This document shows, in pieces, positions 1-36,488 of a stretch of DNA of 64,000 nucleotides. The notes under the pieces were generated by a model. That model saw nothing but the letters and a program-made list of their open reading frames with translations. It had not been told where the DNA came from and did no database searches. The position numbers were made by a program, and so were the translations under genes. This DNA is from Aurantiochytrium sp. KH105 (lineage: Eukaryota; Sar; Bigyra; Thraustochytrida; Thraustochytriidae). The stretch is taken from positions 62,001 through 126,000 of the forward strand of contig BGKB01000021.1 in the NCBI GenBank assembly GCA_003116975.1, in the 5' to 3' direction. The first letter of the stretch is position 1. Every line of letters begins with the position of its first letter.

Positions 1-696
1 AATCGGGTTCTTGCTGCCATGGGATCAACGAAGATCACGCGTCGGGATCTACAGTGCCTCCGAGACGGTGAATGGCTCAATGACGAAGTGATTAATTTTT
101 TTCTTGCCACGGTCCAGGAACGTGTCCGGTGCAAGCGTCAGCTTTGGTACGGGAGACGAGCAGGCGATGATGACACCAAGATTCTGAATACGCACTTTTT
201 CACCAAATTATCAAATCGACGAACGGACGACCCCAATGAGAGATTGACGTACTCGTACGAGAATGTCCGGCGCTGGATCAAGTTCGAACTCGCAGACTAT
301 GATCGCATCGTCGTGCCGCTTCACGAGGGCAATCATTGGCGGACGGCGGTCATCGACCTTGCGCGCAAGCGGATCATTTGCTACGACTCGCTTCTCCAGG
401 CCCAATTTGGTATTCGCGGCCTCAAGTTTTTGGCATGCTGGGTGTGTGACTTGTACGCCGAGGCATACGCACAAGATCTAAGTCTGTCTGATTGGTCATT
501 GGAGCTTGCCAAGACGGCGCCCCAACAATCCAATACCGTTGACTGCGGCGTCTTTGCGTGCATGTTTGCCGTCACGGCTGGCTACAATCTACCCATCAAG
601 TACGGCGCCCGGGACATGGCCTTTTTCCGCCGAAGGATTCTCCTTGATATTCTCGATTGGGGAAAGGAGAAAACGGGAGTCCAGGCACGCGAATGA
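1..696 (+). CDS. Ulp1/SENP-type SUMO protease (C48 family), 5' truncated by the window
   Basis: Cysteine protease of the Ulp1/SENP family, which removes SUMO or a related ubiquitin-like modifier from proteins. The visible 225 residues from the first ATG (19) are the catalytic domain. The signature GEWLNDEVINFFL opens it, the catalytic His is in GNHWRTAVID, the Asp in CYDSL, the oxyanion Gln in PQQSNTVDCG and the nucleophile is the Cys of DCGVFAC. The frame is open from base 1 to the ATG, so the true start probably lies upstream of the window and a longer N-terminal region is missing. The length from the WLND motif to the end matches a Ulp1 catalytic core. A NEDD8-type (SENP8) specificity cannot be excluded from the core alone. 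Confidence 0.85.
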   Translation, partial: NRVLAAMGSTKITRRDLQCLRDGEWLNDEVINFFLATVQERVRCKRQLWYGRRAGDDDTKILNTHFFTKLSNRRTDDPNERLTYSYENVRRWIKFELADYDRIVVPLHEGNHWRTAVIDLARKRIICYDSLLQAQFGIRGLKFLACWVCDLYAEAYAQDLSLSDWSLELAKTAPQQSNTVDCGVFACMFAVTAGYNLPIKYGARDMAFFRRRILLDILDWGKEKTGVQARE

Positions 697-1445
697 GCCG
701 GCGCGCTCGTGCAAAAAGGAAAAAAGGGGAAAAGGGTTGTTACGAGCGAGTACAATAAGAATATGCAGGGTACTTTGCCAGATCGCATTCATTGGCGAGA
801 TGGGCGAATTATCATTCTATCTGCATTCTTCAATGCATCAGCGCGTGTCTCTTCACACATTCGGAGCCCCTCTTTCGTCGCGCTGGATTGATCATCATAT
901 TTACAACAGCAAGAACATCATCGTCTGGGAAAGGAACAGTAGTGTTCAAAAGTCGAGGATGCACGGCTTCAAAATTTATGTCCATAAATTTTGTGCGCCC
1001 GACAGAAAGGCGTCCCGCGTTGTGTATAAATCGCGTCAAAGATAGAAAGATCTTGTTCTTTTCTGACTTCTTCTCTTTTTTCCTTCTTCTTTTCTCGCGT
1101 TGCAAATAGCCTATTCTCTTCCTCTTCTTTCATCAGCAAAATAGGGATCTTGAGCGCATGCTCCCACTGTATGCATTGCCACGGGCGCCAAGGGGCAAAT
1201 GCTGGCAACCCAGAGACGGGCAGGAGAGAGAAAGGGCGACAAAGTCCCCCCTGAGACCTTTCCTGACTGCAGTCATATGCCCGGTCTTCGGTGGCAACGT
1301 CAAGACTGGCTTGTCGTCCGCCCTTCCCCCCTCACTCTTTCTCTCGTCGCTCTTGATAGTACGAGGTGACTTTGAGCGTTGCCCCCTGCATCAGCGTGGG
1401 CGGTCTATTGTACACAAAGAAGCCTTTCTAGAAAATCCATGAAGA
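697..1445. other. intergenic region between convergent genes
   Basis: No coding region supported. The stretch joins the 3' ends of the Ulp1-type gene (+) and the membrane-protein gene (-). It has a pyrimidine-rich block around 1060-1135. No RNA gene recognised. Confidence 0.5.
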
Positions 1446-2819
1446 TCAGGCCGAGGTCTTGCTTGACTTGCTCGGAAATCGCGACTTCGCGCCTTGGGCC
1501 CGCGCTTGTTGTACCGTCGTCTGAACCTCGTCCCGCTTTTCGCGTCGCTGCTGGCAATGTTCGATAGCGCGAAAGAGATACTGCTCCGTTTCGGTAGAGT
1601 CGAGCAAGAGGTTCAAAATGTTTTGAAGACTGCGCTCCTCCATGTCCTCAAACGTGAAACTCGCGTACATGAGGCAGCCTGCGACAACGAGTGGCACGAG
1701 TACGCAGCGAAAGACCCACATTTTCTCCCACGAGGTGAGCCAGCAGAGAACGGGGGCCTGGTTGACATAATCATAGCTATGCACCGGTGCTCCATATCCA
1801 ATGACAGCCCTGCCGTCTACGAAAAGGAGGACACCGAGTGCAGTCAGCCCGGAGCGAAGGCCAGCGTGAAGGCGGCGACTCAGTGTACTTGCAAGAACGA
1901 GAACCCATACGTGCACTGCATAGAAACCGAATACGCTTGAAAGGAGCCCCAAGAGCGCCCAAAGGCTCGAGACATTCCCCTGAGCTTGGCCAAACATGTC
2001 GTACGATTCACGAAAATTTCCGTCGCGAAGCTTTGCAAAGAGCTCCTTCTCAGCGACATCACTCAAACCAAAGGCAGGATCGACACCTCGGCGCTTTGCG
2101 ATCAACATAAAGCTTCCAAAGCGTGGATCTTGTAAGGTGAAGGGCGGCACCCCGGCAATCTCAAAAAGATTGCGTGGCCTGTAATAGCTGACCCACGTGA
2201 GCGCGATAAGTGCGGCCAGAATTACAGTTCCCCCCAGCAAATGAGGAAAGCCACCCATGTCTGGGATCCATGCCGGATACGGATGACGCGCGCGGACATC
2301 TGTAAGATTGCAGCCGCGAAGTTCGGGCTCGTCTTTCTCGAGATAAATGAGCATGAGCTTTCGCAGCATGACACGTTGGTCCTCACGAGTGAGCGTTCGA
2401 CTACCGATTATTTCGTCCTTGACCTTCTCCAAGCGCTTCTTTCGCGCAGCAGGCGCATCGGCAGCGGCGGCGGCTTCGGTCATCTCTGTTTCGAGCCGCT
2501 TGCATTCCTGCTTTCGCAACTCGAAACGTTCTGCACGCTGCCGCTCACGCAAGCTGGGGCCCTTTCTAGGTGTGTCTTCGGTGCCCTTTGCTTCTCGTTC
2601 CCGGCCATCCTTACCCTGGGTCGTCGCGCCATTTTCGTGCTCGTCGCCGTCTCCGTTGTCGTCGCCGGCGTCTCCTTCTTCGTCGTCGAGGTCATCCACT
2701 TCGCTCGACGCGTGAAACTCCTCAAACTCTTCAAACTCTCCAAGCCAGTGCGCCAGGACTGCAGAGATCGCCACCACGCCTGCCTCCGCTACGGCGAGCG
2801 CGCTCACGGGTACCGCCAT
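1446..2819 (-). CDS. hypothetical multi-pass membrane protein with acidic and coiled-coil N-terminal region
   Basis: I do not recognise this 457-residue protein. Residues 1-25 are hydrophobic (possible signal anchor). About 28-75 are strongly acidic (runs of D and E). About 85-150 are charged and helical with many R, K and E (likely coiled coil). At least three further hydrophobic segments follow: one near the LLGGTVILAALIALTW stretch, one or two near VSSLWALLGLLSSVFGF and VLVLAST, and one near CVLVPLVVAGCLMYASF. The C-terminal 70 residues are again charged and end in a Ser/Lys-rich tail. It is divergent from RIO2, with about 700 bp between the start codons. The single ATG start is at 2819. 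No family motif supports a function. Confidence 0.7.
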   Translation of the reverse strand: MAVPVSALAVAEAGVVAISAVLAHWLGEFEEFEEFHASSEVDDLDDEEGDAGDDNGDGDEHENGATTQGKDGREREAKGTEDTPRKGPSLRERQRAERFELRKQECKRLETEMTEAAAAADAPAARKKRLEKVKDEIIGSRTLTREDQRVMLRKLMLIYLEKDEPELRGCNLTDVRARHPYPAWIPDMGGFPHLLGGTVILAALIALTWVSYYRPRNLFEIAGVPPFTLQDPRFGSFMLIAKRRGVDPAFGLSDVAEKELFAKLRDGNFRESYDMFGQAQGNVSSLWALLGLLSSVFGFYAVHVWVLVLASTLSRRLHAGLRSGLTALGVLLFVDGRAVIGYGAPVHSYDYVNQAPVLCWLTSWEKMWVFRCVLVPLVVAGCLMYASFTFEDMEERSLQNILNLLLDSTETEQYLFRAIEHCQQRREKRDEVQTTVQQARAQGAKSRFPSKSSKTSA

Positions 2820-3526
2820 GGTTGACGCTGCGCTTTCTTTTTGATCTTGCTAATGCTGATGCTGCAAGAAGAAGGCGAAGGCGAAGAAGCAGGAAGAGTA
2901 ATAAAAATGAAGGCAAATCCAGACAAGCCAAGTTTCGTCTTTTCCTGCAAGCTGCAGCTGCTCAGAGAGAAAGAAAGCAAGGAGAAGGAAAATGACGCTT
3001 TCCATTTGGAAAAGAGAAAATGAAGAAGAAGAAGAAGAATGCAAGCCGCTTGGTCGTATTACATCATCATCGTCATTATCATCATCATCAAAGACATGAG
3101 CTTGTAGATTACATACTGTTACAACACAAGGATGCTGTCCATCAACTCTCTGACATCGAGATATCACATACTGCTTATGGCCCGCGACATCATTTGCAGT
3201 CATGACATTGTCCTTCCCGAGTACTCCAAGTTGACTCAAGTTTAGCCGCCAAGCGGGTGGCCGCTTTGACCAAGGTCGACCGTTCTCGTTCCAGGTGCAG
3301 ACGTTCTTTTCAGTCTTCTCAGTAAGACTCGACTAATGGAGTGGAGTGGGTGGCTGCTGCGCAGACCAGGAACTCGCGGCACGAAGCGAGCGCGAGCGGC
3401 TTGGACACGAACGCACGAGCAAGCGGAGGCGGAGCGGCTGCGCCAAAAGGGCGCGTTTCTACTCAAAGCGCAAGTACTGAGTCGTAGCGAACGTGGAGAA
3501 GGAGAGAAAGTCTTGCACCACCCACC
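2820..3526. promoter_or_regulatory. bidirectional promoter region with simple repeats
   Basis: Separates the divergent membrane-protein gene and RIO2. It holds a (GAA)n run near 3020-3038 and an ATC/ATT-rich triplet tract near 3062-3092. No clear TATA box or other named element was identified, so the promoter role is inferred from gene orientation. Confidence 0.4.
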
Positions 3527-5095
3527 ATGAAGCTCGACGCCAACGCACTCCGGTACCTTGACCGCGAGGACTTTCGGGTCCTCACGGCGGTCGAAATGGG
3601 AATGCGAAACCATGAACTGGTGCCTGTGGAGCTGGTGACGCAGATTGCATCGTTGCGGCTCGGCGGAGCCAAGAAGATTCTGAGTACGCTGCTGCGGCAC
3701 AAGCTGCTGCACCACGACAGGCAACATTTCGATGGGTATCGTTTGACGAGCCTGGGATACGATTTCTTGGCGCTGCGCACGCTCGTGGCGCGCGGTCTCG
3801 TCATGGGCGTAGGCAGGCAGATTGGTGTTGGCAAAGAGTCTGATATTTTTGTGGTCTTGAACGAAGACCACGAGGAGTTTTGCCTGAAACTGCATCGTCT
3901 CGGCCGGACGAGTTTTCGTGCCATCAAAAACAAGCGCGATTATCACCAGCATCGTGGAAGTCCCTCATGGCTGTATTTGTCCCGTCTGGCTGCTAACAAA
4001 GAACTCACGTTCATGCGCATCCTGCATGAACACGACTTTCCCGTCCCGACACCCATTGATGGCAATCGTCATGTGATTCTCATGTCCCTTGCGGACGGCT
4101 TTCCTCTGAACCAGGTGCGCAACATGGAGGATCCGGCGCCGGTGTACACGGAGATGATGGATTTGATCGAGCGTTTTGCCAAGCATGGGCTGATTCACGG
4201 TGATTTTAACGAGTTCAACGTGCTCATCAATGAAAAGGGCAAGCTGACTGTGATTGACTTTCCGCAAATGGTTTCGATCAATCATCCCAATGCGCGCATG
4301 TACTTTGAGCGTGATGTGAATTGCGTGCGCCGCTTTTTCCGGAAAAAATTCAACTTTGTTGCGGACATGCGGCCTGACTTTGACGAGGTTCTGGCCAACC
4401 GCGTTGCCGATCTCGACGTCAAGGTTGCAGCCTCTGGGTTCACACGCAAAATGGCCAAGGACTTTGATCGCTTCGTGGAGTCCATGGCATCAAAAGAGGA
4501 TCAAAACGAGTCTGATGAGTCTGATGACGACGAGTCAGATGGCGACGATGGAGAGGAGAGTTCTGCTGACGAAGGCGATGATGACGAGGCTGGCAGTGAG
4601 GCCGATGTCGCCAAGGTGGACGAGTCGACACCCAAAGAGGCATCCAAAGAAGCCACGGCTACACAAGCCCCGCTTGCAGCTGCTGCGCCAGAGCCACCTT
4701 TGACGGAACAGCAAGTCGCAGGGGTAATCGCGACTGGAAATACGAATGCTGAGAAGGAAAGCAGCAACGATATCGCTGTCAACGCGAAGGAGCAGGAGAG
4801 AGAAGAAGATGATGCAGAAGAAGAGCCAAAGGAAGAACATCAACAACAACAAGAAGTTTCTGATGATGATGACATCGATGCCGCGACGCTCGGCGACGGA
4901 CCACGAGCACATCTCGACTTTGACCAGACAAGCAAGGCATCGGAGCGGCCTCGGGTCGATGATATTCGGCGGCGCGTGCGGCGAGACTTGCGTAAGAAGC
5001 ACAAACACGGCCAGGGCAAGGGCAAGTCGAGTCGTAACACCATTAAATCTCGGGAGAAGCGCTTGGTGTACCAGGACATGAAGAATGCGCTCTAA
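3527..5095 (+). CDS. RIOK2: RIO2 atypical serine kinase (40S ribosome maturation)
   Basis: RIO2 kinase/ATPase, acting on late pre-40S particles in the cytoplasm and needed for 18S rRNA maturation. Residues 1-90 form the RIO2-specific winged helix (MKLDANALRYLDREDFRVLTA start, SLGYDFLALR end). The ATP loop is GVGKESDIF (100-108), the ATP-binding Lys is about K121 (FCLKLHRLG), the catalytic loop is HGDFNEFN (224-231) and the metal-binding motif is IDFPQ (243-247). After about residue 325 the protein is a long acidic, low-complexity linker. It ends with a basic C-terminus (RRDLRKKHKHGQGKGK) typical of RIO2. The 522-residue length is within the family range. The ATG at 3527 directly gives the conserved N-terminus. 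Confidence 0.95.
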   Translation: MKLDANALRYLDREDFRVLTAVEMGMRNHELVPVELVTQIASLRLGGAKKILSTLLRHKLLHHDRQHFDGYRLTSLGYDFLALRTLVARGLVMGVGRQIGVGKESDIFVVLNEDHEEFCLKLHRLGRTSFRAIKNKRDYHQHRGSPSWLYLSRLAANKELTFMRILHEHDFPVPTPIDGNRHVILMSLADGFPLNQVRNMEDPAPVYTEMMDLIERFAKHGLIHGDFNEFNVLINEKGKLTVIDFPQMVSINHPNARMYFERDVNCVRRFFRKKFNFVADMRPDFDEVLANRVADLDVKVAASGFTRKMAKDFDRFVESMASKEDQNESDESDDDESDGDDGEESSADEGDDDEAGSEADVAKVDESTPKEASKEATATQAPLAAAAPEPPLTEQQVAGVIATGNTNAEKESSNDIAVNAKEQEREEDDAEEEPKEEHQQQQEVSDDDDIDAATLGDGPRAHLDFDQTSKASERPRVDDIRRRVRRDLRKKHKHGQGKGKSSRNTIKSREKRLVYQDMKNAL

Positions 5096-5759: not shown

Positions 5760-8700
5760 TTAACTATCAAGCGCACTTGCACGCAGCGCCCTTCGCACAC
5801 GAAGACATAACTCTGAAATGAGCGCAGGCTGCTCGTGGTCCACCAGGTAGGTAGCATTCTCCTTGTTTGTCTTCGCGCGCCATGGGAGGACCTCGAGCTC
5901 GTCGAGAAGCTTCGTTTGCCATTCGGGCTTTAAGTCTTTGCGATCATCTGCGAACTTCCACTTATGGTGGACCGCTAGAAGCGGTACATTTGCGGGCGCA
6001 GCATCGAGTGCAGCATTCACATCAGCTTGGCATTTTGGTTCCAGGACAACAAGAACAACAGGGGCTTTCTCGATCTTGCACAAGTTCGCCCCAGCATCTT
6101 GAAGCAGCTCCTTGAGCTCGTTTGCAATCGGTGACGATTGCTTACTCACAATGCAAAGACGCAGCTCTGACGATTGCGGCGGGGGCAGGGGCACAGCACG
6201 AAAGCCTGCGTGTCGTGCAAGTGCTCGGAGCATCGCCTCTTCTTCGTACATTCGACGACGGTATGGAATCTTGCTGCATTCTCGGACCGTATTTTCGGCA
6301 TCACGCAGAACTTCTTCAGGGTCGAGGTCGAGGCTAGCGAGCCCTTCCTTGAGCTTTTCGATATCAGAGGCTTTGATGGACGAACTCCACGGGACGTTTT
6401 TGTCTTCATCCCACGCGCTGAAACGGCTGTCTCCCTCAACGACGAACGTTATGTACTTTGTGACGCCCCCTTCCAATCTGGAAAAGCGATCAATCGCAAA
6501 CTTGAGTTCCGCAAGGCAAAAAGGACGGAAAAGCACATCTGTTGTCAAGACCATGACAAATCGCTGCGAAGATAGAACTCCGCGCTGCATGGACTTGAGC
6601 GTGATCTCACTGGCACGCATATCGACCCATGCCGTCATTTCGTTACGCTCGAGGCCCATCAAGAGGTCCTTGACGGTCCCCGCTGCCTGCGCTTGCATGT
6701 GAGAAAGGAAAAAGTGGTATGCCGGGAGCTCAATGAGTTCGTTGTGCGCAGAAGCTGCGTAGAATTTGCTCGTATGACTGTCATTTTCGAGTGGCGGGGC
6801 TGTCGTGCGACCAAAGAGACTAAAGCGTGTCGGGACCACGAGCCTGTGAAGGCCCATAACTCGCTCGGAGAACCGCGGATTTTCTTGGGTGTTCGATCTA
6901 CGCGGTGAGTTTCCGGAATCGTAATCTTGATCCTCGTTGGAGTCGTTGCCCTGGCCCTCGTTCACGTCATCTTCTTGATCCTCATCATCCTGATCCTCGT
7001 TTGCGTCATCCTGATCCTCGTTCGAGTCCTCGCGATCCCCGTTCGGATCATCCTGGTCCTTGTTCGGCTGGCGCGCATTCAGGCGTTCAACATCGAAAAA
7101 GGGGTGATGTTCAACGATCTGATCTACGCTGATCCGCTCACTCGGGTCGCCACGCAGACACAGGCGCACAAGGTCGCGTGCAGCTTCAATCTCAAAGTCC
7201 GTCGCAGTGAGACCATCTGCCTTTGACTTGCCCGTCTTACCTTTGTCCTTGCGCTCGTTCTTGTCTTCCCGCTTTTGGATGCGGTGAAGTCGTTCGTTGT
7301 CTAGGGCAAGCCAATTCATCAATTCCGTCTTGTCGTTGTTTGCGATGATGTTGTCGTCAGACTCGTCAACCATGAAAAGCTTCGTACCAGAAAGCAGCTG
7401 AAAGAGTACCACGCCAAAACCCCAGACATCGATTGCTGGGACGGCCTCGGGTGCCACTCCCCCTTCTGTTCCATCGCGAAACTCCCATCGCGCGACTTCA
7501 GGCGCCACATAGCCAGTGCTCATTTTCCCGGTGAGCAACTTTCTCTCGTTGGGGTGTTCTGCGCTGGAGATCTCCGCCGATGCATCCAAGTCGATCAGCT
7601 GCCAGTCCTCCTCGTCTGCGGCATCGAAGAGCTCCCCAGCGCTATCGTCCTTCCATGCCTTCGAGACTTCGAATTGACCGCCTTTTGCGCCATCTTTGAA
7701 CGTGTGTTGCTTTGAAGCATTCACGCGCACCACGTTCCGCGGCTTGATGTCACCGTGGATACGACCACTGTTGTGAAGGTTCTGAATCACGCAAATTACT
7801 TTGTACGCGATCATACGGATCTTTGGCAGGTCTCGACCAGCAAATCGCTCCGTGTTGATGGCTTCGAAAAGCGAGCGAGAGGCTTGCGTCATGACCAAAC
7901 AAAAGTCCTTGTCGAGGGCTTCTGCCAGTTCCGCGTCGTCGCGGTACAGAATCGACATGCAGCCGTCGACGGCCATTCCATCCGCGTCGCGCGCATCCTT
8001 TTCACGCTCGTACTGCTCTTTCACACGCATGATCTTGAGGGCCACAGGGCCGTCGGTCTCAATATCTGTCCCGAAGTGAACTGCGCAAGTCTTGGACTCG
8101 TGCACGGGCGGGCCTTCCGCAATGCGGAAGCGTTTGAGATACGTCCCGTACGATCGGGCCCAGTCCGAAGTATTGCTGTTTGCAAACGCAAGGGGCTGCA
8201 GAGACCGGCCTCCAGAGTCCTTGGCGTCCATCATGAGGAGTCCGTCTTCCAAACGCACCCAGTGATCGAACAATTCGCAAAACCTCCCGGGGAGGGCAAA
8301 TTCGTTGGATACATGACAGGCGAAAAGGGCATGGATCAAAGGAAGGCCTGTCGTAACCTCGACTCCGTCGCATTCCACAGCCTCCTGAAGCCAGAGACTG
8401 GGGTCGGAGAGCAGAGACTGCACCTTGGTGTCCTTTTCGTTGAGATTGAACATCAAGACCGCAAAGACGTGTGCCGATTTCTGCGCCATCATGTGAGCAT
8501 TAAGGGTCCACGCGTCGGACTCAGTGTCGAAAAGATAGTCGCGAATCCGCTCCATTCTCGCTTCCCCCTTCGGTGCAGAGAGAACCGCTCTCCACATTGA
8601 ATCCAGATAGTCCTCCGGGAGGCCACTGACAGAACACATTCGAAACGGTCAGTTTCCGCGGACTAAAATGACGGCAAAGCAATTGTAGACTTACAGTACC

Positions 8701-11596
8701 TGGACCAAGGTATCGTTCTCGGTCAAGATCAGCTCCGCCAACGAGGCGATACCTTCGCAGTTAATCTTGTTGCCCCCAAGACTGTGCATGATGTTGTGAG
8801 GAACGTGAGTCGATCTGCCCTCTGCTACCCTTGCTTTTGACTTTCAATGAATATTTATCGCCTCCCGCATATGCATGCCTGCCACCTTCAAGCTCGTCCT
8901 TCTACTTACACCAATGAGGTGAGCGAGCTGTTCTTGCCCAAACCTTTTCCGAGTCCGACCGCGCCCTTGTCTCCAATTTTGTTGCCGCGAAGGCTGTGCA
9001 GTATGCTCAAAGTGTCAGTGTCAGATTCCCAGGCTCCTACTGCCATTGCCTACCTTTGCGAAATCCCAGCTTTCGCAACTCTCCACCACACCGAATTCCC
9101 TCTTTGAGAGTTAGGTGCGAACAAACAAACTTACATTAAGGAGTCCAGAGAGCTGTTGTTGCTCAAGGCATCGCCGAGCGCGATGGTGCCCGATGCGCCG
9201 ATTTTGTTGTCCTCAAGACTGCGCATAATTATTAGCGTAATAAGTGCCAAGTGTAAGCGTTCGTTCATTCGAGCATCCCGCCTTCCTGCTCCTCGGCAAA
9301 GCATGCTGGCGCCTTGCCTCAAATGACGCGCAACAAACATACATGAGTTCCTTGAGCGAGCGATTCTTGCTCACGCCTTTCCCGAGCCCGATGGCACCAC
9401 TGTCACCGATCCTGTTCTTCTGGAGACTGTGCATCGTGATGGTGGGTGAAAACGGCCCCTCGACAATGTCAGTGTACGCTCTTCGCATTTCGATTTCCCG
9501 TGAATGCAGCCTTTTTGGTGTCGTCTCAAAACGCGAACGAACGACACAAGCTTCAAGCAACGTACGTCATGAACGTCAGCGAGCTACTCTTGCCAAGGCC
9601 TTTTCCGACCGCAGCAGCGCCCTTGCTGCCAATCTTGTTGTAAGAAACGCTGTTTGTCATGATTGTGGCGAAAAGTGCAAAGTGTCAGCATCAACCTCTC
9701 GTCTTGGTGGGGATTCCCGCCTCTCATTTTTGCTTCTCTCTGTATCTGCCGCCTACACACCCTTGCCCGCCATCTTGGTTCGAGTCAAAAATCTGGACAA
9801 GACACTTACTTGAACGAGGTCAGCGATTTGTGTTTACCCAGGCCCTCTCCGAGACTCTGACCGCCCGCAGGGCCGATGTTGTTCCACTGAAGACTGTGTG
9901 TCGATGTGCATTGTCAGAGACCGTTACCACATTACCGTCGACTTGCCCGACATGGACCTTTTTGAACTGATGGGACTGCGCAATTCGACATTCAACTTAC
10001 GTAATCGAGGTCAGTGACTTGTTCTTGCCCAAGCCTTCCCCGAGCGCGACAGCGCCGTCGTCGCCGACCTTGTTGGAGTGAAGGCTGTAGATAATGATCG
10101 CGGCGAAGAGCGTGAAATGTCAGTATCTACCCTTTGGTGGTGCCACACTTGCGTCATTGGACGGGCACCTGAAACTTACTTCAAAAGTGTCAGCGATTTG
10201 GTCTCGCGCAGACCTCGACCGATCTCAGCAGCGCCCTCATCGCCGACGCTGTTGTTGTGGAGACTGTGTATGGAGTGCGTGTCAAAAGACATATTATCGT
10301 TAGAGTGCTTACACCACGTTCCGCCACAGTCAAGCTGCTTTGACGAAATCCTTGCCGGTATCGCCTCGGACCGTCTTTCGAAGAGCCATATGCGCAACCT
10401 ACATCAACTCCTCCAGCAAGCTCTTGCCCAAGGCTTTCCCGAGAGCGCTGCCACCCTTTGCCTTGATCATGTTGCTATCGAGACTGTGTATCATACGATG
10501 GTGGTGATAATGTGAGTATTTAACACTGAACAGCAGGCCATCTATTTCGTCTCTGCAATTCTGCGGCTAACGTACTTTAGGACCTTGAGCGGACAACCCA
10601 TGGTCAGAGCTTCCGCGATAGCAACTGCGCCGGTAGGTCCGATGGCGTTACGGTCTTCCCACCAATTGCCTCCGAGACTTTACAGAAAATTGAATCGAAT
10701 TGAATGTGTGTGAGTCCTCTCTCTTCAATGATGGTCAACTTTCGCGCGTTCATGCTTCACTCTTGAGCAAGAGCTCTTTTAAGATCGAAGGTGTCCAGGT
10801 AACGCTGCCGTTTCAACTACTTACTTGAGCGAGGTCAACGTCTTGTTTTTGCTCAGCCCTTTGCCAATCGCAATGCCACCCTGCTCATGGATGATGTTGT
10901 TGAAGAGACTGTGATAACCGGCCGGCCGGTTATGAGTTAGTATTTTCCTGTTTTCGATTTTCATTCATCTCGTCTCGGCCGTCTTGGGCCAGAGACTCTC
11001 TGAGACAAGATGTCGAAGGGAAGAAAGGAAACTCACTTCAGCGAAACGAGCGAGGCATTCTTGCCAAGCTCTTCTCCGAGTACCTCAGCGTCTTCATCGC
11101 CAATTCCACGATCAGCGAGACTGCGTATAGATGTCAGTATAAAAAGAAATCCGTCAGTCAAAGTGAAAGACATGCAAGACTTTTTCAGTGAAAAAACGTA
11201 CTCGAGCTCTTTGACGCCTTTGCGCATCAGTGCAATCGCAGCATGCACCGCATCGAGTCCACGAAGCCGGACCTCGATGCCATCTTCGGGGACTTGATCA
11301 TCGTTCTCGTCGTCACTGCGATCGCCGCCACCGCCGCCGCTGCCATCGTTGTCATCGTCGTTGTCATGCTCCTGACCGCCACCATCATCTCCTCCGTCGT
11401 CTCCCCCATTGTCTCCATGCAGAGACCCCGTCTCTTGTATATGGTCACCTTCATTGTTGGGGTCGCGAACCTCGTTTTCTGCGAGATCACGACTCTCATC
11501 GTCTCCATGGCCTGCGCTACGCGCGGAAGGAGACGTGCGTTCGGCCTCCGACATGCGAGAAGCGTATCTAAAAAGCGAGGCAGTAAAGCTCTTCAT
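5760..11596 (-). CDS. LRR-protein kinase-TIR receptor-like protein (14 exons, 1428 aa model)
   Basis: Receptor-like, probably cytosolic: no signal peptide or membrane segment is seen. I assembled the exons by hand at GT-AG sites: 11596-11202, 11120-11037, 10908-10825, 10677-10576, 10483-10403, 10263-10180, 10084-10001, 9893-9810, 9649-9566, 9426-9343, 9218-9135, 8993-8910, 8781-8695, 8625-5760. The sum is 4287 bp, one frame, 1428 residues. Every intron is phase 2. Order: acidic Asp/Gly-rich N-terminus (about 1-120), 12 ribonuclease-inhibitor-type LRRs (about 132-473), a region of unknown fold, a divergent kinase (VALK near 670, HGDIKPRN near 764, DLD in place of DFG, APE), an Asn/Asp/Glu-rich linker, and a TIR-like domain (FFLSH start near 1112, FCLAEL with the expected NADase Glu). 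Known TIR enzymes cleave NAD+; activity here is inferred. An in-frame stop lies upstream of the ATG. The kinase glycine loop is not canonical. Confidence 0.85.
6905..7062 (-). repeat. imperfect short tandem repeat coding for the acidic NEDQDD linker
   Basis: On the + strand the repeat is made of variants of ATCCTCGTT. In the gene it encodes NEDQDD-like units between the kinase and TIR domains. Such tracts vary easily in length; here the frame stays open. Confidence 0.75.
8695..11120 (-). repeat. tandem array of 12 single-LRR exons and related introns
   Basis: Twelve exons, nine of 84 bp and the others of 81, 87 and 102 bp, each encode one LRR. Each repeat runs LxxNxIGxxGAxxLG followed by xGLxKNxSLxSL. 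All start after one base of a codon and end after two, so all are interchangeable. The introns of 69-160 bp share short similar stretches (for example AAGTGTCAG-like sequences on the + strand near 9006, 9670 and 10108). This suggests that exon and intron were duplicated together as units of roughly 180-240 bp. Confidence 0.85.
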
Positions 11597-11699: not shown

Positions 11700-11730
<31 letters not shown>

Positions 11731-13139
11731 CATGCAGGCAGACTACCTCCCTCCCTCGCTCGCTCGCTTGATCGCCGCGTGCGCGTTTCGGACGCCGGTG
11801 AACTCGGGTCTCGCCTGCGCTTGGAGCGATGCTGCGTTGCGGATCTGCTGTTTGTCTCAAAAGAGTGGCGGGGCCGTGCAATCGCCCGTCCTGCGCTGCC
11901 TCTGTTGATCTCTCCTCTGTCCTTTGCGCTCCGGCGGATTGGAGACCGAGGGGGGTTAGTGGGGGGGGGGTGGGGGGGTGTAGCCGCCGAGCAGGGAGCC
12001 ACTCGCGCAGGGACGGCCGCGGAGCGCGAGCTAGCGCGAAGGAGCGCGTTGTCCATTTCCTCGTGCCACTGGTCGCTCGCGCATGCCATGCAAAATAACG
12101 CAAACCTTCCTTTTTCAGTAGTAGACTCTGAAAGAAAGAGGGGACAAAAAAAGGGACTGCAGCGCGTGCACACGCGCCGTCGTGCTGGGTGTGCACCCTA
12201 CTCACTCTCAATGTTTGTATTAGGTAGGCCTAGTAGTTGGGTAGTAGGCCTATACTGCTTTTTTCTTTTGAATCTCATGCAGCGCCACCTCTGCTTCGTT
12301 GCCGCGCTGCGGCTGGCTGGCTGCGGCTACGCCGGCCGGCTGCGGCTATGTAGACCCGCTCACCAGGGCGTTCAAGCAAGCAGTCAATGGCTGTGGCGTG
12401 TTGGCGCCGCGCGCTGCACAGCTGCAGAGCCGCGGTTGCCAACCGGCAGGGGCCGCCTGCCACGGCCAGCGGCCAATGGTCCGCGATCCCACAGTTGCCT
12501 CGACAGAGAGAAAGTCTCGCGGGCGGGAGCACTTGTCTTTGATGTAATGACAGTGAGTGCCAGGCAACGAGGCGACTGCGCCATGCAGCCTGTGCTACCG
12601 GCACCGTGGCTGGCGGCCGCTCTTGACGCGCGAAGGGAGGGAGACTGACGGCGAGTACGAGGTGTCCGCAACGCACACGGCCACGCTGGCCTCGTCTGGG
12701 TCTGGCCTGTTTGCTACTTCATACGCCGGGGCCGCTTTCGCGAGTCATGGTGGATGGCTGTTCTGCTCGGTGCTGGGGCATGGCACGCCCTTTTAGCTTG
12801 CACTTTTCGCGGGAGCATTGTCCGGCAAGCCTTCATAATCAAGTTGCGACAGCCATACCTACCCCATCCCCCCTTTCTCCTCCGGAAGTCGAATTTGCGC
12901 TGCCGGCTGGTCGTGCGACAGTACCCAGCCGCTGGGCTGGCCAAAATGGTAAGCACAGGGGAGGAACTGGGTCAACAACAACAACAACAACAACAACAAG
13001 ACAAACTTGCTCTTAGCTATCGTTGTTAGTCGGACTCGTCTCGATTTTGCAATACTTGGTCTTCACGTTGGCAATACTTATTTTAGTTGGCTTTGGCCTT
13101 TTGAAATGCTCAGATAAGGTCTTCATAACTTGCTTGGGT
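11597..13139. other. gene-poor region with simple repeats
   Basis: Open frames here have low-complexity translations and no family signature. Visible content: a (GGCA)n run at about 11697-11737, a run of G around 11956-11978, GC-rich direct repeats of GGCTGGCTGCGG type near 12305-12345, and a (CAA)n run near 12975-13000. The upstream promoter of the LRR-kinase-TIR gene should lie at the left edge. Confidence 0.5.
11697..11737 (+). repeat. (GGCA)n microsatellite
   Basis: About nine copies of GGCA with one change to TGCA near the end. It lies just upstream of the LRR-kinase-TIR gene. Confidence 0.95.
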
Positions 13140-17689: not shown

Positions 17690-18272
17690 CGTGCAAACAA
17701 GGCAGCAACCCATTGTAGACCTAGAAAGCATCTCCTGTCGATGAAAAAGGAGAGCGCCTTACACACACTGTGCAGATCGGACTTTCTTTCCTCTCCTGTC
17801 TCTTTTCCCTTTTCGTCGATGCGAATGAGCGAGCAAACTCTCGCGCCTTCTCGCTCTCTTTCTCCCTTTGTAGTAGAAAAAACCAATGACCTCATGATCT
17901 TCCGGTCCCGTTCTGGGACACCATCACTTCACCTACTTCTCCTTTCGCATCCGGCGTCTACGTACTATTATCCATTATCTGTCAAAGACTCGAATGGCAA
18001 TCAATGCTCGTCTTGATATAGCCGTCGCGACCAGCCCAGCCAGCCAGCCAGCAAAAGCCGCGAGGTGTCTCTGCACAAGTTCCTGCGGCAGCACGTGTCT
18101 CGCTGGTCCTTCTAAAGTAGCCGTCTTGTTCTCCCTTGCTTGTTCTCCTACCAGCAGCAGCGCCTGGAATGTCGAGCGCAAGTAAAGTAAATCAAGGCGA
18201 AGCTCAAGCAAGATTGCGTGGTCGACGCCGGCAGGAAGGCAGTCCTGCATTTGGCCAGCGGCGCGGCGCGAG
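17690..18272. other. intergenic region and 5' leader of CRT-like gene
   Basis: No coding region supported. It contains CCAG/GCCAGCCAGCC-type short repeats near 18030-18050. The promoter of the CRT-like transporter is presumed here. Confidence 0.4.
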
Positions 18273-20297
18273 ATGCTGCGCGGGGACGGTAGCGAGGCCG
18301 ACGGCCTCGGCCGCTTCGGCAGCGGCGATGACGGTTTTGGTGGTAGCAGCAGCGGCGGCGCAGGAGGACGAGGTGGAGCTGGAGGAGGTGGCGCTTTGCC
18401 GACAGCGTCCCGGGTCACGACGTCCACCGTCGGGGGAGGCCGCGGCGGCGGCGGCGCGAGCGCCGTGGGGAGCAGCAGCGGCGGCGGAAGCACAGGCTAT
18501 GGAGGGTACTCGCGGAGGAGGTTGCTGTCCACGCCATCGTCACCACGAACTGCAGCAAGATTCGAACGGCTCAACGAAGGGATCGAGTTCGACCGCGGCA
18601 ACTGCTGCGCACAAAGCGCGCAGACCGCGAGAAATCGCGCTGCGAGACTATGGAGGCTCGTGAAGACTGGGAGCATTTCGCTGCTTCGTTCATGCGGATT
18701 CATGGTCGACAGCATTGACGCAATTCGGGCAAGCCAGCGGGATGATTACCTCGAGTTGGACTCGGAGGACGACCCCGAGGACCCCTCGTCGCTGATGCTT
18801 TCACATAACATCCAGCTTTTCCTCGCAGTTGTGGCACTTATCTGTGTCACCGCTCTCGAACCTGTTCTCCTCAAAGTCATGGCCGACCATACCATGGTGG
18901 ACGAGCTGCGCGACTACCGCTACGTGCTGGCTCAACTCTTGATGCTTACGCACGTCCCGCTCGCCATTGGTTCGGCCATTTGGTACTCGTGCAAGTATTC
19001 TCGCAATGCCATGGAATCGTGCGATTTTCCAAAGACCTGGTTTGTGCTGCTCGCCTTCCTCAATGCTCTTCATCTGATCATGCAAGTCGTTTCTAGCGGC
19101 TCTGTTCCGGCACCCTTGACCATCCTTCTCGTTAACGCTTCCATCCCGCTCACAAAGCTCTTTGGGGCACTACTTACCGGTGTCATGATTGCAGTTCGCT
19201 ACTGGATGCCAAATCTTCCCGAGTACTGGCTCTCAGACGACTCGCCGGCCGAGCCTATGCTCCAACAAGCGCAACACCAGCTCATGCTCGAGCAACGTAA
19301 CCGGCAACAGCAGCAGAATGCATCGCGGGTCAATTTGTCGCCCGAGGTGACCTCAGACGCAGGCTGTTTCCGGCTTGCCTTCGAGCGGACACTGAAAAAG
19401 ACCCGACGGTTCATTGTCAACCAGCCATATGCAATCATGTCCATGTTCCTGGTGGTGTGCGGTGCTGCAATTGGCCTTTTCCCTGTCATATCGAACAGTG
19501 TCTCTGCCCTCGGCGCAAAGTCCTATTGCCACGTTTACAATGCTGACTGCGCCTCGAGCACATTAATCTTCTTGCTTGCTGCAGTGCCAGCAGCGCTCTC
19601 CGCCATTTGCGAGGAGCGGACTCTCGTGCGATACTCGCTACCTGTTGCGCCCATGATGCTGCACGGCTGGCTTGTCCCTATGCAATTTCTTTTCGGCGTC
19701 ATTTTGGCTCCCATCGGCCGTCATCTCCAGCATCCAACGCGCAAGTGGTCCAATGTGAGCATGGAGCTCCATGGTCTCGATGAAGAGGTCTCACAAGGTC
19801 TGCAGTGTATTCTTCTTGGCAAAGAAACAGGCATAGGATACATTGGTCATGCGGACCCCGACTGGTGCAAGCCGCTGTTGCCGCTGCTCATTCTCTTTTT
19901 GCTCGTTAGCTTCTCGTACCACATGCTCACGCTCTATATTATGCGCAAGGCCACGGAACTTTGTCTTCGAATTTGCACAGCGCTTGCCATTCCTATCGGC
20001 TGGTCCGCGCTCATCATTTACGACATCAATTTCCAGCCAAATGTTTCGAAAGACGTTCCAACTCAAATTGTTGTATCCTCGTACAACAAGGTGGCACTGG
20101 TTTTAATTGTACTCAGCATGTTCTTGCACAAAACCATTGCGGAGCCAGAGACCAGCTACATTCTCACGTCGCCTTTTGAGGAGCGAGATCGCATTTCCAT
20201 TGAGGCCGCCTCGGAACGGCATCGACGAACACTCATGCAAGCTCGATCGCAAGACAACGGTTCGGAGGTCCGTTTGCCTTCTCATGAAATCTTGTAG
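18273..20297 (+). CDS. CRT-like (chloroquine-resistance-transporter family) membrane transporter
   Basis: 674 residues. Residues 1-110 are Gly/Ser-rich and disordered. From about 178 there are about ten hydrophobic segments, as in the drug/metabolite transporter superfamily. Family landmarks match the CRT group: SIPLTKLFGALLTGV in the TM4 region, AAVPAALSAICEERTLV, an EVSQGLQCILLGKETG loop, and LLVSFSYHMLTLYIM near the end. The loop between the TM halves is enlarged (Gln-rich, about 325-375). Plant and protist CRT-like proteins sit in plastid or vacuole/lysosome-type membranes and move glutathione, peptides or amino acids; the substrate here is unknown. The length is greater than the usual 420-450 because of the N-terminal and central insertions. 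The ATG at 18273 is the first in frame. Confidence 0.8.
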   Translation: MLRGDGSEADGLGRFGSGDDGFGGSSSGGAGGRGGAGGGGALPTASRVTTSTVGGGRGGGGASAVGSSSGGGSTGYGGYSRRRLLSTPSSPRTAARFERLNEGIEFDRGNCCAQSAQTARNRAARLWRLVKTGSISLLRSCGFMVDSIDAIRASQRDDYLELDSEDDPEDPSSLMLSHNIQLFLAVVALICVTALEPVLLKVMADHTMVDELRDYRYVLAQLLMLTHVPLAIGSAIWYSCKYSRNAMESCDFPKTWFVLLAFLNALHLIMQVVSSGSVPAPLTILLVNASIPLTKLFGALLTGVMIAVRYWMPNLPEYWLSDDSPAEPMLQQAQHQLMLEQRNRQQQQNASRVNLSPEVTSDAGCFRLAFERTLKKTRRFIVNQPYAIMSMFLVVCGAAIGLFPVISNSVSALGAKSYCHVYNADCASSTLIFLLAAVPAALSAICEERTLVRYSLPVAPMMLHGWLVPMQFLFGVILAPIGRHLQHPTRKWSNVSMELHGLDEEVSQGLQCILLGKETGIGYIGHADPDWCKPLLPLLILFLLVSFSYHMLTLYIMRKATELCLRICTALAIPIGWSALIIYDINFQPNVSKDVPTQIVVSSYNKVALVLIVLSMFLHKTIAEPETSYILTSPFEERDRISIEAASERHRRTLMQARSQDNGSEVRLPSHEIL

Positions 20298-31928: not shown

Positions 31929-34900
31929 TCAGGACAGCTCAAAGCCCGCGCCCGAGCGGATCGCCGTCACGAGCTTCTCCTTCATCACTTTGCTCGACGA
32001 GTACGTCGGTAGCTTAAGGATGTTAAAACACGTCGATGCAGACGGCAAGGCCTGGTCATCAGAGCGAATAGAGACACGCTGAAGCGTAAAAGGCGGGCTT
32101 AGCGCGCCAAAACCAAGGAGCGGAGCGCGCTCGCAGCTCGTCACAAAGCGCAAAAGTCGCCCTTGGTCCTCAGCTGATAGTTCTGCCAGAACTTTCCAGA
32201 AACGCGCGACTGTGCGATCGAGCCCGTGAAATCCATTGGCGTACGATGTATGGCGACGTAAATCATCGATGCTAAAGACGCCTGCAGCGCCAGAAATGAG
32301 CGTTTGCAACTCCGGCTCGGAAAAGAGCCGCGTCCAGCTCGGCTGAATGAGCTGCGAAAATCCACGCAAAAACGCCTGGCTCTGCGCGTGAGCGCGAACG
32401 TTCAAATAGTAGTTTGCCATGAGGTGAACGTAGCGGAACTTGTTGTGCGAGGTCACCTCGAGATTGCGACCGCCTGGCACGAGATCCACCTCCCGCTGCT
32501 CGCCAAGATCATCCTCAGTAACAGAAAAGGTGAGGCAAAGATCCCGAATATCACCGTCAAAGGTTTTGAGAAAAGACAGATTGCGATAGAGCTCGACATC
32601 CAGCGACGGCAAGTCACCGATCGAAGACGCGCGATGGAGTAGTTTGGACAGGAAAAAACGAGCGAATCGGGGCTGAATCACCAGCTCTTCATACAAGGCC
32701 TTGCCTACAATGCAGCCGAGGAACTCGAAGAGCTCGAGATGATCCTGCTGAATGACGCCCGATCGCGGATTTGGGTACAAAAGCTGATCTTCGGTCGTAG
32801 CGAAAAGACCATAGCTTGCGTCGAAGGCGACACCGCTTAAAGTCGTCCAAAACTCCTTGAAGAGGCCCCCTGCGTCAATGCCCGTTTCTTCGGCGCCAGC
32901 ATCGTTGACGAAAACCACATACAGGCGTCCTTTCAAGCGCGGTCCAAGTTTTGCAAGCTTTCGAAAGCCGTCTTCGAGAATGTTGGAGCGACGGACCGTA
33001 AAGCGAAAAGATGAGCCATCGCGAGGTTGGTGCGCTTCGCGATCAGCAGCAAGCATCTTTTGAAACATGCGGACGCGCTCGGCAAATGGAATTCCAAACG
33101 CCATTTCGCGCACAACGCGCTGGCGCTGCTCCTCGGAAACTGACCTGCTCAACGCATTGACTCCATCTCTAAAGTTGAGCTGTGGCACGAGCCAGACTTT
33201 CGTGGCACACAGCGGCCTCCTCGAATGTCGCTCGTACAGCGCGGCCAGTAACGCCGACGCGCGCTCCGCAAGAGTATCCGCAAGCGCCTTTGTTGATGAG
33301 CCAGCCGCCGATTCTACTCGTGTCGACGCCGACGAGGACGACAACGTCGCGCTTGATGCATGGCCCGGCGATGCTTCCGTGATGGTGTGAAAGAGCCGCT
33401 GCTTGAGCTCGAGTATAAGAGCTTCGAGATCGTTTCGATGGAGTGGCACGTGCTCATCGTAAATTTCGGCATCGTCAGCAATGAGAAGACCGTGCTGCAG
33501 TACAGCGCAGAGGACGAGCAGCACGGCCTGGGCTCCGGCATCGAGGCGCTCAAAACTTTGCGACTGCTGCGAGCGAAGAGGCGTCAGCATACTGTAAAGT
33601 GCCCAGAGCCGAGTCGGAAGCTCGCGATCCCCAAAGGAGAGAGCGTTCAAGAGGCCCAGCGTAAAGGTATTGTTTGCGCGGGGAGGCCATAGCCAAATAA
33701 ATGTGCCAAACGTGCGTGCCCACACAAGCGCAAGATCCAGAGGCGTGCTTGTTTGCTTTCCTCGTACGGCAGACGGCTGCGGCAGTTCAGGTGGCATGCC
33801 CGCTCCATCGGGTTGGGGCGTAGAACCCTCGGCAAGACCGCGAGCCACATGGGACGTATTGCGAAGACCTGCACGTGCTTGGGCTGCAGTCAAGGTCGCC
33901 GAGGGCCTGCGAAGGGAGCGACGCGATGTTCCAAGCATGCGACTCCACGACGAGGATGACCAGGCATCTTTGACGCGATCCAAGACTGATTTCGCAGCCG
34001 CCGCTTTAAGACTGGGTTCCGTGAGTGTCTTGTCTGCGAGCGCAGTGGCCTTGGAGGTCCACTCCCGATCGTTGCGCACGCGACGTGCTTGGAGATCTGC
34101 CGCTGAGACCACGTGAGTGCATGTATTGACAAGGAAACTGCAGACTTCGAGACGCTGTATTTGACGAAGCTGTGCGCGGAGGAAGTCATTCATGGCCACG
34201 CAGACGCCATCACGGATCCAGATAACCGACATTTTCCCACAAAATGTCTGCTCGGGAATACTTAGAAAAAGGCTGTGCATCTTTTTCATGCCAACTTGAA
34301 ACCAGGAAGGCTCTTGGCCGGCTTGGGCCTCGAGCGACACAAGGCTGAGAAGGTTGCCGAGCTGAAAGAGGACCCCGGGCACACCTTCGGGACCTGGACC
34401 AACAATTGCGTGGCATTGCAGAGCACGTGCTATCAGATCTGGATATGCTCGCACGGAATCGAGATCGGCGCGATGCTCGAGAACTGCTAGAGAAAGAAGA
34501 TCAAGCATAGCCCGCGCCGTAGAGTCCGTATCAGGAGCAACTTGCAAGATACCGAGGCAAATGTCCACCCAGCGTGCGCCCATGGCCTTGCGGGTAGCTG
34601 TCCATGGCCTTTCGCTGGTCGGGATGCCAAGAGCGTCAAGACCCTTGGAGAGTTCTTCGACCGCGAGTGGAGCTACGCTCTGTGAGATTTCAACGTGGGA
34701 CTCGACAATTAATGCGAGGACATCAAGAAGTCGCTCCTCCGCTCTTGGTGAGAAACCTGCCGCTGCGAGGTGCGCCGCAAACACGCTCGCACGTTCCTTT
34801 GATAAAAACCCGGCACCCTCTCGCGCCTCGGCTTCGAGAGCATCTTGGCAGAGCCCCGCAAGATAGGTGAGTGCGGCATCATCGAATCCCGGGCGGTAGA

Positions 34901-35210
34901 ATGCATTGACCTGCAGTACAAGAGCCGCAAGCGTGGCATCCGGGACCACAAACAACGGTCGGCCGGCAGCTGCGAGAACTGCTTTGACCCGGTTGATATC
35001 CGCTTGTTTGCGTGCAAAGTCTTCCCGTAGCGTCCTCCGCAGACGCATGCGTGCCAGCCCGGACCTCACCACGCATTGCACGCGCACCGCGTGTTTCGCG
35101 AGTTCCCGCTCCCTCGCGCGCGCCTCGCGCTTCTCGCGAGCTTTGGCGACGACATCTTGCTTTCTGCTCGCCGCACCTCGGCCGCCTCGTCCGCCGTCCG
35201 AATCGAACAT
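31929..35210 (-). CDS. UBE3C: HECT-type E3 ubiquitin ligase, UBE3C/Hul5-like
   Basis: 1093 residues from the ATG at 35210 (MFDSDGG). The open frame continues upstream into pentanucleotide repeats, but this ATG gives the UBE3C-type start (Met-Phe, GAASRKQ, then a long Arg/Glu helix and an IQ-like motif VRVQCVVRSGLARMRLRR). The C-terminal 380 residues are the HECT domain: RLYVVFVNDAGAEETGIDAG, FKEFWTTL, EFLGCIVGKALYEEL and the thioester Cys at about 1061 in TCFNILKLP. UBE3C/Hul5 extends ubiquitin chains on proteasome-bound substrates and so supports processivity. ADRM1 in this window acts in the same machine. The middle region (about 400-560) is low in conservation. Confidence 0.93.
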   Translation of the reverse strand: MFDSDGGRGGRGAASRKQDVVAKAREKREARARERELAKHAVRVQCVVRSGLARMRLRRTLREDFARKQADINRVKAVLAAAGRPLFVVPDATLAALVLQVNAFYRPGFDDAALTYLAGLCQDALEAEAREGAGFLSKERASVFAAHLAAAGFSPRAEERLLDVLALIVESHVEISQSVAPLAVEELSKGLDALGIPTSERPWTATRKAMGARWVDICLGILQVAPDTDSTARAMLDLLSLAVLEHRADLDSVRAYPDLIARALQCHAIVGPGPEGVPGVLFQLGNLLSLVSLEAQAGQEPSWFQVGMKKMHSLFLSIPEQTFCGKMSVIWIRDGVCVAMNDFLRAQLRQIQRLEVCSFLVNTCTHVVSAADLQARRVRNDREWTSKATALADKTLTEPSLKAAAAKSVLDRVKDAWSSSSWSRMLGTSRRSLRRPSATLTAAQARAGLRNTSHVARGLAEGSTPQPDGAGMPPELPQPSAVRGKQTSTPLDLALVWARTFGTFIWLWPPRANNTFTLGLLNALSFGDRELPTRLWALYSMLTPLRSQQSQSFERLDAGAQAVLLVLCAVLQHGLLIADDAEIYDEHVPLHRNDLEALILELKQRLFHTITEASPGHASSATLSSSSASTRVESAAGSSTKALADTLAERASALLAALYERHSRRPLCATKVWLVPQLNFRDGVNALSRSVSEEQRQRVVREMAFGIPFAERVRMFQKMLAADREAHQPRDGSSFRFTVRRSNILEDGFRKLAKLGPRLKGRLYVVFVNDAGAEETGIDAGGLFKEFWTTLSGVAFDASYGLFATTEDQLLYPNPRSGVIQQDHLELFEFLGCIVGKALYEELVIQPRFARFFLSKLLHRASSIGDLPSLDVELYRNLSFLKTFDGDIRDLCLTFSVTEDDLGEQREVDLVPGGRNLEVTSHNKFRYVHLMANYYLNVRAHAQSQAFLRGFSQLIQPSWTRLFSEPELQTLISGAAGVFSIDDLRRHTSYANGFHGLDRTVARFWKVLAELSAEDQGRLLRFVTSCERAPLLGFGALSPPFTLQRVSIRSDDQALPSASTCFNILKLPTYSSSKVMKEKLVTAIRSGAGFELS

Positions 35211-35247
35211 GCGGGCGGCCTTGGCCTCGCCTCGGGCCGGGCCCTCT

Positions 35248-35346
35248 GTGCTGTGCTGTGCTGCGCTGCGCTGCCGCGCTGGCCCGCGTCGCGCGAGACG
35301 ACACGAGACGACACGAGACGAGACGACACGAGACGAGACGAGACAA
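35248..35346 (+). repeat. CTGTG/CTGCG and ACGAG pentamer arrays at the HECT gene 5' end
   Basis: CTGTGCTGTGCTGCGCTGCGCTG is followed by a run of GAGACGACAC / GAGACGAGAC units. In the gene's direction this reads (CTCGT)n then (GCAGC)n just before the start codon. The MATE gene has the same arrangement. Confidence 0.85.
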
Positions 35347-35516
35347 CACGGATTGCTCGGCACGCGATCGACGATGACTTGTCTTCCCCGGTACGATATC
35401 ATGTCTCCGCGCGTACGATACTGTTCTTCGTGTTGGTCTTGTTGTTGGCCTTGGTGATGATCTTGGAGACGGCTTCGGCGCTCCAGCGCACTGCACTGGA
35501 CTCTAAACGCTTCCAT

Positions 35517-35606
35517 GAGGTGATGGTCAGCGAGGTGATGATCAGCGAGGTGATGATCATCGAGGTGATGATCAGCGAGGTGATGAACATCGAGGTGATG
35601 ACCAGC
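35517..35606 (+). repeat. minisatellite, six copies of a 15-bp unit
   Basis: The unit is GAGGTGATGATCAGC with few changes. 90 bp are exactly six units. It lies upstream of the HECT ligase start and could be read in frame (Glu-Val-Met-Ile-Ser), but no gene context supports coding. Confidence 0.95.
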
Positions 35607-36488
35607 TCGCTCGAAGCCTAGTTGGTGTGAAAGTAATAATAACGATGACTGACAGCCAAAATGTCATACGTGAAGTGGGCGATCAACCCTCTCAGCTCCA
35701 TGAGTCTTCGTTTTCTATCCAAAGGATGTTTCCTTTCCAAAGGATCTTTACTGGCAATAAGTAAGTTGCTGCTGGTTCCTTCACAGAAACTTCTTTCTTG
35801 TCCAAGCGAGCCGTGTGCTGTTCGCCCCTATTGTCTGTCCCCTTTTGCTCTCCATCGCACGTCAGCTCATACCGTTTTCCCGCCAATGCTGGCAGGTATA
35901 GATACTAGATACCATAGGCAAGTGGAAACTACCAGCTTGGACTCCCAACCAACGCCTTCCCATGATGATTCACGGCACTCGCCGAGTGTGTCTCGCTGGT
36001 CCAATCGCCGTCGAGACAGTGCGAATTCTTTACAAGCCGGCCTCCATCGCGGTCGATCGCGGAAGCCTCTCGCAGCCGCTCGTTGGCGTGGCTGTCCCGG
36101 CGCCCTCTGCGCAGTTTGCCACGCCTCCGTTGGCCCCTCCTCCAGCATACTCGCGCTGCATCATCTGCTGGGCTGCTGGTCGAGCTTGTGCTCTTCCGGC
36201 ACGAACTGGGCGCGGGGGGGCCTGTGCAGAGCACCATCCTGCGAGGTCGCGGAGCGGAGTGGCGCTGAAGCGGACGCACGGGCCCCTGCGGAGGCAGCGT
36301 AGCGTGGCTTGCGTGGCTTGCGAGGCTTGCGAGGCTTGCGTGGCAGGAACGCTTGGCCAGCAGCAGCGCGTCTGGCTGGTGAACTCGACGTGCTCTGAGC
36401 AGCAGACCAGAACTGGACGCTGCGCGACGCACGAGCGAGGCCGGGTGCTGCTCGCTCGCGCGCGCACGAGTAGGGAGCAGGAGAGACG

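Follow-up and report, generated by a model that had tools for sequence, protein, structure and literature searches.

NLRs, which include the plant TIR-NB-LRR proteins and the NLRC3-type proteins of animals, couple a leucine-rich repeat (LRR) sensor to a TIR domain or to another output. TIR domains can be enzymes; RUN1, SARM1, AbTir and Cat1, for instance, are TIR NADases. In fungi, NLR-like genes serve self/non-self recognition between cells. To our knowledge, little is known about the innate immunity of single-celled eukaryotes.

Choanoflagellate Kinase TLRs, as described in Richter et al. 2018 (PMC6040629), contain LRRs, a kinase and a TIR domain in that order, together with a transmembrane segment. 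That paper calls Kinase TLRs and Kinase TIRs unique to choanoflagellates, and its authors propose a form of signalling that needs no separate recruitment of a kinase.

Brown algal LRR-ROCO genes (Teng et al. 2024, PMC11378527; Zambounis 2012 as cited there) are proposed immune receptors. According to Teng et al. 2024 (PMC11378527), the ROCO genes encode a single LRR in each phase 2 exon, sites on the concave face are positively selected, and the transcripts are alternatively spliced.

The gene described here lies in a stretch of 64,000 nucleotides from the thraustochytrid Aurantiochytrium sp. KH105, called the window below. It runs on the minus strand from 11596 to 5760. The rebuilt spliced frame has 14 exons and encodes 1428 residues followed by a stop (Table 1). 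All 13 introns are of the GT-AG type and all 13 are in phase 2.

Table 1. Features of the gene and its predicted protein, in window positions.
Feature	Position	Strand	Remarks
Exon 1	11202..11596	-	residues 1-131: start Met, acidic low-complexity N-terminus, cap preceding first LRR
Exons 2-13	8695..11120	-	single LRR per exon; flanking introns all phase 2
Exon 2	11120-11037	-	84 nt, LRR
Exon 3	10908-10825	-	84 nt, LRR
Exon 4	10677-10576	-	102 nt, LRR
Exon 5	10483-10403	-	81 nt, LRR
Exon 6	10263-10180	-	84 nt, LRR
Exon 7	10084-10001	-	84 nt, LRR
Exon 8	9893-9810	-	84 nt, LRR
Exon 9	9649-9566	-	84 nt, LRR
Exon 10	9426-9343	-	84 nt, LRR
Exon 11	9218-9135	-	84 nt, LRR
Exon 12	8993-8910	-	84 nt, LRR
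Exon 13	8781-8695	-	87 nt, LRR
In-frame ATG within intron 13	8637..8639	-	candidate internal start; may give a kinase-TIR-only transcript
Exon 14	5760..8625	-	pre-kinase segment, kinase, TIR, TIR-like domain, stop
Helical pre-kinase segment	8127..8625	-	residues 474-640; may be a degenerate stretch of ankyrin type
Protein kinase domain	7104..8081	-	residues 656-981; Pkinase match; Lys671, Asp766, Asn771, Asp819 kept; DFG = DLD
Acidic linker, kinase to TIR	6735..7103	-	residues 982-1104
TIR domain	6198..6734	-	residues 1105-1283; TIR_2, profile match to solved TIRs, modelled fold; Glu1180 in FCLAEL
Second, putative degenerate TIR-like domain without Glu	5766..6164	-	residues 1295-1427; hhalign and secondary structure order

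An earlier note on this DNA had joined the same continuous frame by hand-splicing and had read in it 12 LRRs, a divergent kinase and a C-terminal TIR-like domain with a glutamate in FCLAEL. The domain searches that it suggested agree with this reading. Pfam finds LRR_6 (E 3.7e-32), Pkinase (1.2e-20) and TIR_2 (5.9e-7, residues 1112-1204) in this order, and HGDIKPRN, LIDLDAS (in place of DFG) and FCLAEL are all present. The pre-kinase segment gives weak matches only, to ankyrin-like, importin-like and other families.

The array is not a product of random sequence. Its 3 kb hold nine 84-nt units in which an exon with the LRR scaffold stands between AG and GT, and 300 dinucleotide shuffles gave none. 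Elsewhere in the window (1-5000 and 13001-64000, 56 kb, both strands) there is one such unit. Together with the rebuilt frame, an intact second copy on contig C5 and relatives with an uninterrupted frame, this control rules out chance motifs or mis-splicing as the source of the gene.

The surroundings of the gene are as follows. A short GGCA-type repeat lies immediately upstream of its start, at 11700-11740. The adjoining gene (3488-5095, plus strand) encodes a RIO2 kinase (Pfam Rio2_N 1e-31, RIO1 3.3e-52). Further frames match a CRT-like transporter (18186-20297, plus), a HECT ubiquitin ligase (31929-35663, minus), a MatE transporter (38227-39984, minus) and Cons_hypoth698 (45663-47066, minus); counting RIO2, 5 of the 10 frames scanned have a domain match. 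Exon 14 has no megablast match among plasmids.

The earlier note had likened this plan to an NLR without its nucleotide-binding domain, and the comparison holds. A Pfam scan of the spliced protein (E 0.01) finds no NB-ARC, NACHT or other nucleotide-binding domain and no ROC-COR, while the LRRs and the TIR are present. Like an NLR, the gene joins an LRR sensor to a TIR-type output in a predicted cytosolic protein. Unlike an NLR, it has a kinase in place of the nucleotide-binding domain, with the LRRs at the N-terminus and the TIR at the C-terminus.

The cytosolic location is predicted from a simple hydropathy scan. In the window protein the highest 19-residue value is 1.62, within the kinase, and the N-terminal maximum is -0.34; thus the scan sees neither the signal peptide nor the transmembrane segment of Toll-like receptors and Kinase TLRs. 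The same scan finds no such segment in seven family members, where all peaks above 1.6 fall within the kinase.

The order of LRR, kinase and TIR has been described before, in the Kinase TLRs of choanoflagellates (Richter et al. 2018, PMC6040629), and the earlier note's view that no described family has this order does not stand. The likeness is one of domain order, taken from the published description. The two differ in that the Kinase TLRs are described with a transmembrane segment, whereas none is seen here by hydropathy and the LRRs are of the Pfam LRR_6 type.

The last 320 residues, for which a predicted structure without a TIR fold would have refuted the note, do show a TIR fold in the structure model, in the expected part. 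Foldseek places the modelled domain close to the TIRs of RUN1 and SARM1. The TIR matches span model residues 42-219; model residues 1-42 belong to the acidic linker and have pLDDT <50. The Foldseek list also includes enzymes other than TIRs whose alignments cover the full model; GlmS, for example, stands at rank 3 (E 6.0e-5, TM 0.21). Profile comparison puts FCLAEL opposite the Cys-x-x-Glu of Cat1. The predicted fold and the position of the glutamate are thus those of the TIR NADases RUN1, SARM1, AbTir and Cat1. Unlike these, the present TIR shares its chain with a kinase and has a putative second TIR-like domain behind it, and its activity is a prediction.

The note had described one TIR-like domain at the C-terminus. 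This domain is real, and a putative second one comes after it. A colinear hhalign alignment with the TIR profile (probability 59.5, E 9e-5) and the order of secondary structures suggest that the final domain is also TIR-like; P0006, P0016, L027 and L028, in which the motif was not found, were excluded from this comparison. A control against the kinase gave a probability of 0.2 (E 0.29). Pfam matches this domain in none of nine members.

The twelve LRR exons and the large last exon could instead belong to separate transcripts. The public protein of the window gene, P0001 of Hondaea fermentalgiana (931 aa, 99.57% identical), begins at an internal Met inside exon 14 and lacks the LRRs, and intron 13 offers an in-frame ATG. 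Against this, frame and phase are preserved through 14 exons, and the same layout from array to kinase recurs at many loci. The copy on contig C5 (L009) keeps all 12 LRR exons and differs from the window gene by a single 3-nt indel in exon 1, with no frameshift and an overall pN/pS of 0.16. Two other genes of this genome, each with two copies, carry LRRs, kinase and TIR in a single uninterrupted frame: L030/L031 (1313 aa; 98.7 and 99.8% identical to P0009) and L035/L036 (1570 aa; 97.1 and 93.4% identical to P0012, whose TIR_2 score of 26.6 bits is slightly below the curated cut-off of 28). Because the C5 copy is intact, P0001 is a shortened form of nearly the same sequence and these relatives are uninterrupted, one polypeptide is favoured and separate transcripts are very improbable.

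The window gene is one member of a large multigene family. Its genome assembly comprises 76 Mb in 367 contigs and appears to hold both haplotypes, because many loci occur as near-identical pairs. Exon 14 has at least 78 matches in this genome, a lower bound because 47 of 245 candidates were scored. The window locus and 31 fetched loci were examined, and 26 of these 32 contain a kinase frame. The catalytic Asp, Asn and Asp are kept in all 26 and the Lys in all 25 where it is covered; DFG reads DLD or DMD throughout. A TIR motif is found in 24 of the 26, with its glutamate kept in 22.

Some members depart from this pattern. L019 (C21:839800-848300) and L020 (C68:191500-200200) each have 21 recognised LRR exons and a kinase frame, and in both copies the TIR Glu is replaced by Gly, so that they provide a natural TIR without Glu. 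L027 (C182) and L028 (C96) encode an LRR-kinase with no TIR frame; KPRN has become EPRN, and each copy has a kinase frame of 506 aa. The loci without a kinase frame (L032, L033, L034, L037, L038 and L039) contain no more than pieces of the kinase, of the TIR or of the C-terminal region, some with stops in the match, and are probably broken or partial copies. At L017 (C57), L018 (C300) and L022 (C29) the LRR array extends into the end of the contig, and therefore the repeats may break the assembly.

Related proteins extend beyond these loci. An alignment-based search finds at least 25 proteins at 1e-30; each search scored 8000 candidates, and P0011 and P0013, which are in the query alignment, are missing from this list. 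Pfam was applied to 7 of the 14 newly found proteins (P0014-P0027). It reads P0014 as LRR-kinase-TIR, P0017 and P0025 as ankyrin-kinase-TIR, P0022 as kinase-TIR, and P0018 as LRR-kinase-PH without a listed TIR. P0016 has a kinase and a weak ankyrin match with no TIR_2 at 0.001, and P0023 has WD40 and then a kinase among the best 25 of 32 families, its TIR_2 appearing in precomputed domains only. P0019, by its precomputed domains, combines LRRs in an array with a related kinase and a PH domain, and no TIR is listed. P0016, P0017, P0022, P0023 and P0025 are 26-33% identical to their best matches within the exon frames of the family. P0009 is named 'Protein NLRC3' by NCBI. A fish NLRC5, P0020, is included for its profile score only, as BLASTP gives no match between it and the query.

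In a kinase tree, the members with exon arrays, including the window gene, cluster with Hondaea proteins, and L030/L031 and L035/L036 cluster with P0008 and P0014 and with P0011. P0007, P0020 and P0026 were left out of this tree, where support is weak at several deeper nodes.

In many paralogues, 84-nt LRR exons form long arrays whose spacing hardly varies. It is about 274 bp in a first group (L011-L013 and L015) and about 341 bp in a second. Within these exons, codons 2-3 encode the xx of LxLxxN, on the concave face of the LRR. Units were picked by their LRR scaffold positions, their spacing and, for the closest pairs, intron similarity, and not by the hypervariable codons. In the first group (32 units), differences per site amount to 0.517 for codons 2-3, 0.170 for the flanking introns and 0.090 for other exon sites. 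In the second (30 units), the values are 0.610, 0.121 and 0.171. The ratio of codons 2-3 to both flanking introns is 3.05 in the first group and 5.03 in the second (95% intervals 2.21-4.67 and 4.38-5.90, from 200 bootstraps over units). In the second group the remaining exon sites, too, differ more than the introns, with a ratio of 1.41 (1.20-1.61), and positions 5, 8, 9, 25 and 26 are variable; the split codon is moderately variable in both.

Finer comparisons show the same pattern. For the first group's twelve closest pairs, the difference is 0.022 in introns and 0.43 in codons 2-3. When units 1-5 of four fast loci are matched by position, codons 2-3 differ at 0.167-0.367 versus 0.031-0.157 in introns. 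The six comparisons give p values from 0.0006 to 0.07, with five below 0.05; they share sequences and are not independent.

Local hypermutation could also produce such codons, and synonymous differences are indeed high there as well. By eye, however, identical codon pairs turn up at different loci, and the adjacent Leu codon varies along with them at its third base. These patterns fit old variants that have been retained and reshuffled, and hypermutation, though it may contribute, is not needed to explain the hypervariable codons.

Hypervariability of the window gene itself is not supported: codons 2-3 differ at 3 of 54 sites (0.056) versus 92 of 1414 in introns (0.065; p=0.69). Nor is there an excess over introns in L019/L020 (p=0.16) or L027/L028 (p=0.98). 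The window gene is therefore a slow member, and the immune-type signature sits in its relatives. The immune-receptor reading of the earlier note thus gains from the concave faces of the paralogues and loses from the gene to which it was applied, where no diversifying selection is seen.

The best explanation, with a probability of about 0.58, is that the family encodes a cytosolic non-self receptor with a kinase-gated TIR output and a diversifying LRR face. From TIR and LRR biology we infer its ligand, the gating by the kinase, the enzyme activity and the immune role.

A comparison of the two ends of the gene points to exchange between loci. By kinase exon, L011 pairs with L015 (95.2%, 3' flank 93.3%) and L012 with L013 (92.9%, 3' flank 98.0%). 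By LRRs 1-5, L011 pairs with L012 (94.4%) and L013 with L015 (96.2%). Since these pairings disagree, LRR arrays have probably been exchanged between loci. Identical short variants also recur at different loci. The numbers of recognised LRR exons in two probable allele pairs are 12 versus 16 and 11 versus 19; L011, whose array has a 1.3-kb gap without recognised exons, may be undercounted, and misassembly of tandem arrays may contribute to such differences.

Alleles that diverge in LRR number and in concave-face residues are what a compatibility system would show, and its output domains would be identical. The family might then serve mating or allorecognition between cells rather than antimicrobial defence, a use that hypervariability fits as well. 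The many loci with differing LRR arrays and the slow, conserved members fit a repertoire better than one compatibility locus, and this alternative is unlikely.

Selection differs along the protein. Purifying selection acts on the kinase and the linker in all ten pairs (pN/pS 0.07-0.34). In nine pairs, pN/pS ranges over 0-0.65 for the TIR and 0.09-0.84 for the C-terminal domain, so that both are weakly constrained in some pairs. In L030/L031 it is 0.00 to 0.14 by domain. Slow evolution of this pair and of the window gene relative to L009, together with the Glu-less TIR of L019/L020, would suit an ordinary signalling scaffold, with LRRs that recognise one set partner of the host and a TIR that works as an adaptor and not as an enzyme. 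Such a role is at odds with the glutamate kept at nearly all TIR-bearing loci, with the close fold match to the RUN1 and SARM1 TIRs and with the existence of hypervariable paralogues; we regard it as slightly less probable still than allorecognition.

If the family does encode non-self receptors, the LRR horseshoe would bind a non-self or stress ligand on its concave face, and binding would release the kinase. Because its catalytic residues are kept, the kinase probably phosphorylates its own protein or a partner, which would let the first TIR assemble. That TIR would then act as an NAD-consuming or nucleotide-making enzyme and trigger defence or cell death. The second TIR-like domain, which lacks the Glu, could be an assembly partner or an autoinhibitory brake. 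The family would diversify its ligand face as LRR exons are duplicated, arrays pass from locus to locus and concave-face codons come under selection.

Like the brown algal LRR-ROCO genes described in Teng et al. 2024 (PMC11378527), the family has a single LRR per phase 2 exon, shuffled arrays and a stramenopile host, and both are proposed to be immune receptors. Selection on concave-face sites is described for the algal genes; the excess over introns in the fast paralogues may reflect the like here, and the window gene shows no such excess. The exons are 72 nt there and 84 nt here, and ROC-COR is replaced by kinase-TIR. Neither the family nor the combination of kinase-TIR with exon-per-LRR shuffling was found in the open-access PMC papers searched.

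A broader and more tentative reading is that a kinase-TIR core with exchangeable sensors (LRR, ankyrin, WD40) forms a separate class of intracellular immune receptors, a kinase-switched counterpart of the NLRs. The thraustochytrid LRR arm would then be a recombining cassette array whose ligand face outpaces its own introns, giving a rapidly renewed repertoire.

The family thus places a sensor, a possible switch and an output in one chain, and its natural copies differ most in the predicted binding face. It appears to represent a new variety of receptor, for immunity or for self/non-self recognition, in a single-celled marine protist. If confirmed, it would be another route to diversified intracellular receptors, besides NLRs and the LRR-ROCO and NB-TPR genes of brown algae, with a kinase standing where the nucleotide switch sits. 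The presence of diversified immune receptors in protists would then become a testable question.
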